From Candidatus Methanorudis spinitermitis (GTDB taxonomy: Archaea; Methanobacteriota; Methanobacteria; Methanobacteriales; Methanobacteriaceae), in contig JAITUQ010000048.1 in the NCBI GenBank assembly GCA_031286225.1, positions 1-64,000 on the forward strand: 64,000 nt of DNA, given 5' to 3'. The notes below the pieces were generated by a model. That model ran no database searches. It saw only the letters and a list, made by a program, of their open reading frames with translations, and was not told the DNA's origin. Of the stretch, positions 44,057-60,804 are shown in pieces. A program made the position numbers and the translations under genes. The first letter of the stretch is position 1; each line of letters starts with the position of its first letter.

Positions 44057-44137
44057 GTTTTTAGGTCATATTATACAAAATAAAAATTGATATTTTTGTA
44101 TTGAATTGTTTTTAGGTGATATTATACAAAATAAAAA
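44057..44137. repeat. 30-bp direct repeat covering the start region of the M24 peptidase gene
   Basis: GTTTTTAGGT(C/G)ATATTATACAAAATA occurs at 44057-44086 and 44108-44137 with one mismatch (period 51). The second copy has the intact ribosome binding site AGGTGAT; the first has AGGTCAT. The start region has thus been duplicated, and only one copy keeps the translation signal. Confidence 0.7.
44114..44126 (+). promoter_or_regulatory. Ribosome binding site in front of a probable ATA start
   Basis: AGGTGAT (44114-44120) is followed by ATT ATA. GGTGA-N4-ATA has the same spacing as GGTGA-N4-ATG in carA, serA, the larE-like and PRC-barrel genes, pointing to ATA 44124 as the start. Confidence 0.45.
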
Positions 44138-45149
44138 AATTAATAATATTTTGCAAAAAATGAACAATGAAGATTTTGATGGAATGATTTTAACCCAGAT
44201 TAATAATATTAAATATCTTTCTAACTATTCTCCAACAAGTTTTGCAATTTGTATTATAAAAGAAGATCCAGTTATATTAACTTCTCAAATGGATAAAGAA
44301 TTAGCTAATAAAACATCTTCCCTAAAAGTAGAAGAATTTAAATCTTTTTCAGATATTGTAAAACTTCTCAAAAAAGAAAAATTTAAAAAAATAGCTATTG
44401 AATCTTCTTTACCTGTTAATATTTATAAAAAAATTGAAGGAAAATGGGATTTAGAAATTAAAGATTTTTTAGAAACTGAACGTATGATTAAATCTTCTGA
44501 TGAAATAGATAAAATTAATAAAGCAGTAGCTATTTCTCATAAATCATTTAAGGAGTTGAATATTCTTGAAAAACGAGAAAAGGGAACTAATGAATGGGAA
44601 GTAGCTTATGAACTTGGATACTTAATGAGAAAAAATGGAGCTCAAGAAGAATCATTTGAAACTATAGTAGCTACTGGTTCAAATTCAAGTTTACCTCATG
44701 CTAGATGTGAAAATAAAAAGCTTGAAACTCCAATTTTGATGGATTGGGGTTGTAAATTTGATGGATATTGTTCTGACACAAGCAGAACAATTGTTTACAG
44801 TGAAAAGCAAGAAAAAATTTTTAATATTGTTCTTGAAGCTCATGATAAGGCTATTGATTATATAAAACCTGGAATTAAAGTTTGCGAAGTTGATGAAATA
44901 GCTAGATCCATAATAGCTGAATATGGATATGTTGACAATTTTATTCATTCAACTGGCCATAGCTTAGGATTAGATGTTCATGAAAAGCCAACAATTTCTA
45001 AAAAAGATGAAACTATTTTAGAAAAGAACATGATTATTACAATAGAACCTGGAATATATTTAGAAGGTGAATTTGGTGTTAGAATTGAAGATATGGTGAA
45101 AGTAGCTAATAAAGGCGAGATAATGGGAAATCTCCCATATAAAATTTGA
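44124..45149 (+). CDS. M24 family metallopeptidase (Xaa-Pro dipeptidase-like)
   Basis: 341 aa if started at ATA 44124; an in-frame TTG at 44106 lies before the ribosome binding site and is the only nearby standard start. N-terminal creatinase-like domain (1-125), then pita-bread catalytic domain with metal ligands Asp in MDWGCKFDGYCSDTSR (near residues 212 and 223), His in HSTGHSLGLDVHE (near 288), Glu in TIEPGIYLEGE (near 315) and Glu in GVRIEDMV (near 327). It cleaves Xaa-Pro dipeptides or N-terminal residues. Lone gene. Confidence 0.82.
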   Translation: MQNKKINNILQKMNNEDFDGMILTQINNIKYLSNYSPTSFAICIIKEDPVILTSQMDKELANKTSSLKVEEFKSFSDIVKLLKKEKFKKIAIESSLPVNIYKKIEGKWDLEIKDFLETERMIKSSDEIDKINKAVAISHKSFKELNILEKREKGTNEWEVAYELGYLMRKNGAQEESFETIVATGSNSSLPHARCENKKLETPILMDWGCKFDGYCSDTSRTIVYSEKQEKIFNIVLEAHDKAIDYIKPGIKVCEVDEIARSIIAEYGYVDNFIHSTGHSLGLDVHEKPTISKKDETILEKNMIITIEPGIYLEGEFGVRIEDMVKVANKGEIMGNLPYKI

Positions 45150-57233: not shown

Positions 57234-57249
57234 ATAATAGTTTTTTAGT

Positions 57250-57261
57250 AGGGATAATATT
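57250..57261 (+). promoter_or_regulatory. Candidate ribosome binding site before a possible ATT start
   Basis: AGGGA (57250-57254), then 4 nt, then ATT (57259), in frame with the coding sequence that follows. The spacing equals that of GGTGA-N4-ATG genes in this window. No ATG, GTG or TTG exists in frame before 57502. Confidence 0.35.
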
Positions 57262-58047
57262 TTCAATGAAAATTTAGTCTTTAAAAATATAGAAATTCCA
57301 AGGATTATATTAGGTTCGGCTCCTTTAACAGGAGAAAGCTATTTTGGACATAGGTCCAGATTATATCAATTAGATTTATCTAAAAATCCAGAAAACATAG
57401 CTAAAATTATAAAAAAAGCAAATACTATAGGAATAAATACTATTAATTTAGTAAACAATAGCTATTTAATTGAAGGATTAGAGAAAGCCCAAGTAAAAAA
57501 CATGAAAATCATAGCTACAATTGGAAAAACTAATGTTGATTATGTTTTCCCTGATTTTGAAAAAGCCAAAAAAGCTAATTGGAAAGAAGATATCAGACTA
57601 TTTGCTAATTTGAATAGTTTAATCATACTTATTGATGAGTTTATAACTGACAGCCATGATTTTAAGTTATTGGAAGAAATTTTAATTGAAATTAAAAAAC
57701 AAAAAATATTTTCAGGTCTAATAACATCTTTTCCATTTAAAACAACAAAAAAATTAATTGATTCTCCGATTTTAGACCTTTTTGATTTTTATATGATTCC
57801 AATTAATAAATTAGGATATATGATGGATTCAGAATCTTTTATGGACGGTGAGCGGGAAGAATTAGCTGTTCTTTTAAAAAAACTTGATAAAAAAATAATT
57901 GCCAGTAAGATATTAGCTTGTGGAATCCAAGAACCAAAAGAAGCATTTAACTTTTTAAAGACATTGGATTATGTTGATATGGTAGCTATTGGAGTAGCAA
58001 GTGAAGAAGAAGTTGAGATGGATTTTGAATTACTGAATAATCTTTAA
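57259..58047 (+). CDS. Conserved archaeal TIM-barrel-like protein, non-standard start
   Basis: About 262 aa from ATT 57259. The first standard start (ATG 57502) would remove about 80 residues that are clearly coding: the frame is open from the TAG at 57238 and reads IPRIILGSAPLTGESYFGHR and onward without interruption. Later segments such as ILDLFDFYMIPINKLGYMMD and LDYVDMVAIGVASEEE look like barrel strands and loops. Either the gene starts at ATT, or its start codon has been lost and it is a pseudogene. The family has no function I can name. Confidence 0.6.
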   Translation: MFNENLVFKNIEIPRIILGSAPLTGESYFGHRSRLYQLDLSKNPENIAKIIKKANTIGINTINLVNNSYLIEGLEKAQVKNMKIIATIGKTNVDYVFPDFEKAKKANWKEDIRLFANLNSLIILIDEFITDSHDFKLLEEILIEIKKQKIFSGLITSFPFKTTKKLIDSPILDLFDFYMIPINKLGYMMDSESFMDGEREELAVLLKKLDKKIIASKILACGIQEPKEAFNFLKTLDYVDMVAIGVASEEEVEMDFELLNNL

Positions 58048-59106: not shown

Positions 59107-59477
59107 AGGAAAACCTCTAAATCTCAATTTAAGAAATATGATTATTTAATATATATTTGATAACTTTCAATATAAATATTAGCTATAATAATTAACATTT
59201 ATTAAAAAAATTTTACAATTATAATATTATCATCTATTAAAAATATTTATAAAAAATTTATTAAAAAAATTGTATAATCATATTATAAATATCAAAATAG
59301 CAGGATTATAAATATCAAAATAATAAGGATTGTCTAAAAGGTTATATTAATTAATTTTCTTTTTTAAATAAAGATTAAATTAATTGTTTTTATTATTAAG
59401 GATTAAAATTAAGATTATATAATTAACTTTTTCAATATTGTTTTAATTAAATTATAATATGTTAAATTCTAATTTAA
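59107..59477. other. Divergent promoter region regulator / tiaS, with an 18-bp direct repeat
   Basis: 370 bp without a gene. ATTATAAATATCAAAATA occurs exactly at 59282-59299 and 59305-59322. The repeat lies midway between the two divergent starts and could be a binding site for the neighbouring HTH protein. Confidence 0.45.
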
Positions 59478-59490
59478 GGGTGATTATATA
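59478..59490 (+). promoter_or_regulatory. Ribosome binding site and ATA start of tiaS
   Basis: GGGTGA (59478-59483) is followed after 4 nt by ATA (59488-59490), the first codon of a reading that gives the conserved TiaS N-terminus. The in-frame stop TAA at 59470-59472 leaves no room for a standard start upstream. Confidence 0.7.
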
Positions 59491-60804
59491 AGAGTATTAC
59501 ATGTTGGTATTGATGATACTGACTCTCCAGATGGAATGTGCACAACATACTTAGCTTGCCATACCATTAACCAATTAAAAGAAAATAACATAAGAATTTC
59601 AGGGTATCCTCGTCTTATTCGGTTAAATCCATTTGCAAAATTTAAAACTCGTGGAAATGGAGGAATTTCATTTAAAATAGCTATTGATGAGGAAAGTGAG
59701 GAAAATTCCAATGGGGTTTTTCATGAAAACTCTGAAGAAAAAATGACAAAAATTCAATTAGCTAAAAAAATCATTCTTAAAAATATCGAAGATCTTTCTC
59801 AAATGAGTCATGAAAATACAAATCCTGGTGTTGTTTTTTATGAAGGTGAAATAACAGAAGCAATGAAAAATTATGCAATGAAGGCAATTTATTCAATAAT
59901 TTCAATAAAGGAAGCAGAAAAAATTGTAAATAAAATTGGAGCTGAAGTTCATAAATTTAAAAAAGGAAGAGGAATTATTGGTTCTCTTGCAGCAATAGCT
60001 TGTCCACTTGAAGATTATACTTATGAACTTCTTACTTATAGAATGAAAGAAAACTATGGTAAGAAACGGAATATTGATAAATTATCTGTTATTGAAATGG
60101 ATAGGAAAACATTTCCTGAAACATTTGAGAATATTGATTACAATAATGAATACATAGCTATTGAACCAAAAACACCATGCCCTATTCTTTTTGGAATAAG
60201 AGGAGAATCTCCAGATATTCTAAAAACAGCTAAAAATATTATAAAAGCCAATGAAACTATTCAAACGTCATGTATTTTCAAGACAAATCAACATACTGAT
60301 ATGCACCTTCAAAAAATAGCTAATATAAACGATATGGAGGAGTATGGGTCTTACATAGTAAGTGGAACCATAATTAAAGAACCCCATATAATTGAAGGAG
60401 GACATGTTTTTTTCTCCTTAAAAGATGAATCTGGAGAAATCGAAGCTGCAGCTTATGAACCAACTAAAAACTTTAGGAAAGTAATTAAAAAGCTTCTAAT
60501 TAGTGATCAAGTTCAGTTATTTGGAGGAATTGGCTGTGGTGGAACATTTAACATAGAAAAAATTAAAATTCTTTCTTTAGCTAAAAAACAAGAATTTAAA
60601 AATCCTATGTGTCAGTGTGGAAAAAGAATGACATCAGCAGGACTAAATAAAGGTTTTAAATGTAGGAAATGTGGACATAAACTTCCAAATGGAAAAAAAA
60701 TAGCTATTGAAGAGAAAAGAGATTTGATTGAAAACAAATTTTATGAAACTCCTGTTTCAGCTAGACGACACTTATCTAAACCAATTTCTAGGATGAATAA
60801 ATAA
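59488..60804 (+). CDS. tiaS: tRNA(Ile2) 2-agmatinylcytidine synthetase
   Basis: 438 aa from ATA 59488. TiaS attaches agmatine to C34 of tRNA-Ile(CAU), so that it reads AUA instead of AUG. The N-terminal catalytic region contains HVGIDDTDSPDGM, which would be lost if translation began at ATG 59536, the first standard start. Then come the FKTRGNGGIS block near 55, HKFKKGRGIIGSLAAIA near 155, an OB-fold (about 285-360, YIVSGTIIKEPHIIEGGH) and a C-terminal zinc ribbon (CQCGKR and CRKCGH near 375 and 393). Gene content is complete; only the start codon is unusual. Confidence 0.9.
   Translation: MRVLHVGIDDTDSPDGMCTTYLACHTINQLKENNIRISGYPRLIRLNPFAKFKTRGNGGISFKIAIDEESEENSNGVFHENSEEKMTKIQLAKKIILKNIEDLSQMSHENTNPGVVFYEGEITEAMKNYAMKAIYSIISIKEAEKIVNKIGAEVHKFKKGRGIIGSLAAIACPLEDYTYELLTYRMKENYGKKRNIDKLSVIEMDRKTFPETFENIDYNNEYIAIEPKTPCPILFGIRGESPDILKTAKNIIKANETIQTSCIFKTNQHTDMHLQKIANINDMEEYGSYIVSGTIIKEPHIIEGGHVFFSLKDESGEIEAAAYEPTKNFRKVIKKLLISDQVQLFGGIGCGGTFNIEKIKILSLAKKQEFKNPMCQCGKRMTSAGLNKGFKCRKCGHKLPNGKKIAIEEKRDLIENKFYETPVSARRHLSKPISRMNK

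Follow-up and report, generated by a model that had tools for sequence, protein, structure and literature searches.

To our knowledge, very few genes, most of them from bacteria, use a near-cognate start codon. The infC gene of E. coli, which encodes IF3, is a gene of the translation apparatus with an AUU start, and in this it resembles the AUU-type tiaS genes described here; infC, however, is autoregulated by its own product, whereas TiaS is no initiation factor, and archaeal initiation differs. The sigR gene of Streptomyces starts with GTC and is repressed by IF3 (PMC5472188). Both sigR and tiaS have a rare start after a strong Shine-Dalgarno (SD) sequence and an apparent canonical GTG within that SD, but the start of sigR was proven by mutation and Edman sequencing, that of tiaS is deduced from comparative sequence only, and the two differ in codon and in domain of life. 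On two points tiaS matches the near-cognate class, namely a start other than ATG, GTG or TTG, as judged by comparison across the family and the outgroups, and a strong SD at normal spacing. A search of the open-access literature brought up no paper that describes such starts in Methanobrevibacter. In a large group of methanogenic archaea of the gut, one gene, tiaS, appears to retain AUA or AUU over about ten genera, and the gene of a general transcription factor, tfb, retains ACG.

The window, by which we mean the whole stretch of 64,000 nucleotides of Candidatus Methanorudis spinitermitis DNA that was analysed, contains a gene that the first-pass annotation had named tiaS, and this identity is borne out. 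The protein scores above the Pfam cut-offs for PF22641, PF08489 and PF23783, which correspond, in this order, to the TCKD and FLD domains and the C-terminal zinc ribbon, and the OB domain (PF01336) lies slightly under its cut-off (25.9 bits against 27). The NCBI equivalog model NF040849 matches 434 residues with an E value of 1.3e-136 and 455.6 bits, against a curated cut-off of 600. The solved structure of Archaeoglobus fulgidus TiaS (PDB 4rvz, 3amt) is a full-length homologue that has the N-terminal GIDDTDS motif in common with the window protein (4rvz: E 2.8e-105, residues 5-437). The gene is therefore tiaS, a predicted tRNA(Ile2) 2-agmatinylcytidine synthetase gene, whose product enables the cell to read the codon AUA, and tiaS is present in 78 of the 78 better family genomes searched. 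Met1 of the A. fulgidus protein aligns one residue after the ATA discussed below, so the window protein is one residue longer upstream.

The tiaS frame of the window opens after an in-frame TAA and then reads TTT AAG GGT GAT TAT ATA AGA GTA TTA CAT GTT GGT ATT GAT GAT. The core GGTGA (59479-59483) is separated by a TTAT spacer from the ATA, from which the translation is IRVLHVGIDD. The first in-frame ATG, GTG or TTG is ATG 59536, inside DSPDGM and downstream of the codons for the conserved HVGIDDTDSPDG motif. A re-reading of the frame found these positions, and the absence of any canonical start between TAA 59470 and Met 59536, to be exactly as first annotated. The window holds seven copies of the pattern GGTGA-N4-ATG where 0.88 would be expected, and none of 100 shuffles reaches seven; this bears out the claim that GGTGA-N4 is a normal spacing for the genome. 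The calculated SD pairing energy is -8.8 kcal/mol before ATA 59488 and -0.7 kcal/mol before ATG 59536. Met 59536 was rejected as the start because the protein would lose HVGIDDTDSPDG and this ATG has no SD.

Features of the tiaS start region in the window and of other genes with apparent near-cognate starts
Feature	Location	Strand	Basis or remark
In-frame TAA, upstream limit for the tiaS start	59470..59472	+	sequence
Shine-Dalgarno GGTGATT (relatives: AGGTGATT)	59479..59485	+	complementary to archaeal 16S 3' end AUCACCUCCU (anti-SD consensus: PMC7531240)
ATA, proposed tiaS start codon	59488..59490	+	ATA or ATT here in 85 related genomes
A at +4, near-invariant behind ATA/ATT	59491..59491	+	possible pair with U33 of the initiator tRNA
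tiaS CDS, 438 codons and stop, tRNA(Ile2) 2-agmatinylcytidine synthetase	59488..60804	+	domain and structure matches
DUF3100 gene	L242:420-1290	-	apparent ATT behind SD
DUF3100 gene	L251:2970-3824	+	apparent ATT behind SD
DUF3100 gene	L247:3300-4150	+	apparent ATT behind SD
tfb	L179:16270-17262; L211-L240	- (L179)	ACG behind strong purine-rich SD
M24 Xaa-Pro-type peptidase gene	44124-45149	+	apparent start AGGTGATATT-ATA at 44124, AGGTGA-N4
Long stop-to-stop frame	57241-58044	+	first ATG at 57502

We collected tiaS from the family and the order and read the sixth codon upstream of the G in GIDDTDS; the genome sample holds one genome per species, many of them draft. Within the Methanobacteriaceae, this codon is ATA in 17 genomes from seven genera (one of them, G004, counted by hand reading) and ATT in 68 genomes from three genera, giving 85 near-cognate genomes in about ten genera, 68 of which have AUU. 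The ATA genomes include both members of the window's own genus that have the locus, M. filiformis, M. curvatus and all five genomes read from the genus of Candidatus Methanovirga. ATT is found at all 63 loci (62 genomes) of a large M. smithii-like genus and in a further six genomes outside this genus; in G014 and G015, which are among these six, it comes one codon later. In the alignment, the near-cognate codon falls where ATG-type relatives have their ATG, and an almost invariant AGGTGAT nearly always stands upstream of it. In 18 genomes of eight genera the frame contains not one ATG, GTG or TTG from its upstream stop to the GIDDTDS motif. ATG occupies the position in one nested genus (17 genomes), in several putatively Methanobacterium-like genera, in 13 of 13 outgroup genomes and at the single Methanolobus locus sampled outside the phylum; the genus taken for Methanosphaera has mostly TTG, further upstream. 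The first-pass annotation had held that ATG in related strains would speak against the ATA, and this objection holds for the one nested genus, where the SD is also weaker, and for the outgroups, and nowhere else. A base error, which it had also considered, is excluded by the ATA of a second genome of the same genus (G002) and by the ATA or ATT of 85 genomes from independent assemblies.

Within the M. smithii-like genus, where the species are related and the counts thus not independent, ATTA is invariant at 63 of 63 loci, while the Ile codon of GIDD is ATT in 32, ATA in 27 and replaced by Val in four. The leaders of these genes consist of a near-invariant AGGTGATT, three bases that drift, and then the invariant ATTA. 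The GTG within AGGTGATT would be the likely pick of an automatic gene caller, and it lies in frame at codon -9 in most of the genus (63 of 63 loci by one count), so that the true start might be this GTG and the ATT an internal Ile codon. We consider this very unlikely. A TAA separates GTG and ATT in six genomes of the genus, and in those six the GTG cannot be the start; codon -7 varies freely (16 kinds), whereas the ATT is never ATA or ATC; several other genera have this GTG in a different frame; and the GTG sits within the SD with no SD of its own, as did the GTG that had been annotated in error as the start of Streptomyces sigR. In sigR, the annotated GTG fell inside the SD and stops placed between it and the true GTC were harmless (PMC5472188); the six M. 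smithii-like species carry a natural stop like those engineered there. The GTG was rejected on these grounds. Elsewhere, G009 and G010, of one genus, have an in-frame TTG upstream and G004 has an in-frame ATG at -10, so tiaS of these three genomes, like that of most M. smithii-like species, could begin at an upstream TTG, ATG or GTG.

Given the conserved codon, the invariant ATTA as against the variable Ile codon of GIDD, and the TAA after the GTG, the ATA or ATT is very probably the real start of tiaS, and ATA 59488, as first proposed, is very probably that of the window gene. What the comparison documents, at the level of sequence, is the position of this start, its age and the nucleotide-level selection that keeps it. 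Gene calling with ATG, GTG and TTG alone would misplace such starts, and TiaS of some species would lose part of its N-terminal motif. The natural comparisons that the family provides (ATA, ATT and ATG, and a stop between GTG and ATT) can serve the question of how the archaeal ribosome chooses a start.

In a tree of TiaS, the Methanobrevibacter-like genera form one clade (support 98/96). ATA lies on both deep branches of this clade, ATT appears in about three separate places, and ATG appears once, beside an ATA genus, although this sister placement is weak (89/43). We infer that ATA is the ancestral state of the clade; the most parsimonious history would be one change from ATG to ATA, about three from ATA to ATT, and one from ATA to ATG accompanied by a weakening of the SD. 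In other prokaryotes, start codons shift towards AUG, and a survey of 61,358 ancestral AUG starts recorded one change to AUU (PMC5622118). The long absence of AUG from tiaS though it is one transition away, set against this general drift, suggests that selection acts against AUG in this gene.

The SD energies, which come from one duplex routine with a fixed window and are to be read as relative values only, range from -8.2 to -9.5 kcal/mol at every ATT locus and have a median of -8.8 at ATA loci, against a median of -5.5 for the ATG genes of one M. smithii-like genome. In the nested ATG genus the tiaS value is -4.5. A trade-off between SD and start codon would be based on this one reversal; the SD of that genus is unexceptional there, since 30-34% of its ATG genes are equally weak, and the outgroups combine ATG with a strong SD. 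An A at +4 follows the start in 66 of 67 ATT-type and 14 of 16 ATA-type tiaS genes (80 of 83 at codon -6), as compared with seven of 32 ATG-type tiaS genes and 41-46% of ATG genes in general, and its pairing with U33 of the initiator tRNA may aid the tiaS start. A riboswitch or leader hairpin was rejected, as the tiaS leader has no Rfam match and no conserved fold, and no stretch upstream of the SD block shows strong conservation. Three leaders folded against shuffles gave z values of +1.2, +0.4 and -0.2. The leader of one M. smithii-like genome (L242:2705-2825, minus strand) does fold better than its shuffles (z -2.7), which that of the window does not, and conservation of this fold was not seen. 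Coupling to an upstream short ORF, in which GTG-ATT-TTA-TAA overlaps ATAA in some ATA genera, was rejected because the arrangement is not conserved: the GTG of the M. smithii-like genus shares the reading frame of tiaS.

Other near-cognate starts were sought in 217 gene pairs from 400 kb of each of two M. smithii-like species, and 400 kb of each of three genomes were covered in all; the comparison picks up clear cases only, and many of its weak matches are noise. Most pairs are canonical in both species, and tiaS and tfb (ACG in both, SD -12) were the two judged clearly near-cognate. The apparent ACG start of tfb is present in most Methanobacteriaceae genera read and is replaced by ATT in one species (G041). 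A gene for a DUF3100 membrane protein adjoins the 3' side of tiaS in many species, though not in the window; this gene, too, appears to start with ATT behind an SD, and its frame was confirmed for three species from two genera. Most of some twenty additional loci, among them those of the genus with an ATG tiaS, show a like arrangement, and at least one (G065) has ATA. A hydrogenase-protease-like gene has ATT in one species. The M24 peptidase gene of the window has an apparent ATA start, likewise in G002, and an ordinary ATG, GTG or TTG stands near this place in most of the other genera read.

With regard to decoding, the genome has three tRNAs with a CAU anticodon, one of which we assign to Ile2 (L292), and its other tRNA-Ile is GAT only. 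No tRNA-Ile UAU was seen among the 31 tRNAs of this 94% complete genome, and the one reader of AUA to be found among them is tRNA-Ile2 CAU. The initiator tRNA is normal (A1:U72, three G:C pairs, CAU, U33), and the same 31 tRNAs include no second or variant initiator. The reading we favour, and think likely, is that the ordinary initiator tRNA-Met (CAU) starts tiaS at AUA or AUU with a third-base mismatch. The strong SD and the A at +4, with its possible fourth pair to U33, would keep the mismatched codon in place in the P site and compensate in part, and inefficient initiation would leave a low, steady supply of TiaS. A low dose should suffice for a tRNA-modifying enzyme, and surplus TiaS might also act on the two remaining CAU tRNAs. 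That this low dose is the point of the near-cognate start is somewhat less secure but still rather probable, and the early suggestion that a rare start could keep TiaS low is supported. "Any weak start" does not account for the strict ATT, without ATA, of one genus.

Two other explanations would make the start a regulatory device. According to the earlier reading, an AUA start senses the decoding of AUA and ties the level of TiaS to the modification or charging of tRNA-Ile2. The tiaS of the window does have an ATA start, which is also the state we infer for the ancestor of the clade, and tRNA-Ile2 CAU is the sole AUA reader found, but 68 of the 85 near-cognate genomes have AUU, which tRNA-Ile2 does not read and which arose from AUA about three times, and tfb (ACG) and the peptidase gene (ATA) are of like design without a tie to AUA reading. 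The predominance of AUU contradicts the link; we rejected AUA-specific regulation and regard a sensor of this kind as extremely improbable. Alternatively, the output of tiaS might track initiation stringency (aIF1 or the supply of initiator tRNA) within a small regulon that includes tfb and others. The shared layout of tiaS and tfb, the destabilisation of non-AUG complexes by archaeal aIF1 (PMC6237735), and infC and sigR as bacterial precedents (PMC5472188) speak for this, but the aIF1 gene has an ordinary ATG in the 18 genomes read, by which autoregulation of aIF1 through a weak start of its own was rejected, and there is neither a conserved leader structure nor an Rfam match. We judge stringency control of tiaS to be unlikely. 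A broader proposal would be that a small and ancient set of genes in Methanobrevibacter-like archaea (AUA or AUU in tiaS, ACG in tfb, AUU in the DUF3100 gene; in total perhaps a few per cent of all genes) depends for its level of translation on the stringency of initiation at a near-cognate start. Such a set would be an archaeal counterpart of infC- and sigR-like control that escapes automatic annotation; the proposal is a tentative one that we also consider doubtful.

The long stop-to-stop frame at the end of the table gives no match in Pfam and lacks a canonical start over its first 80 codons; its start may lie further on or be near-cognate, or the gene may be broken. Genome G128 (C2, C42, C58) has two tiaS copies that lack residues 1-34, and an N-terminal piece on its own, which reflects either an assembly fault or a duplication.
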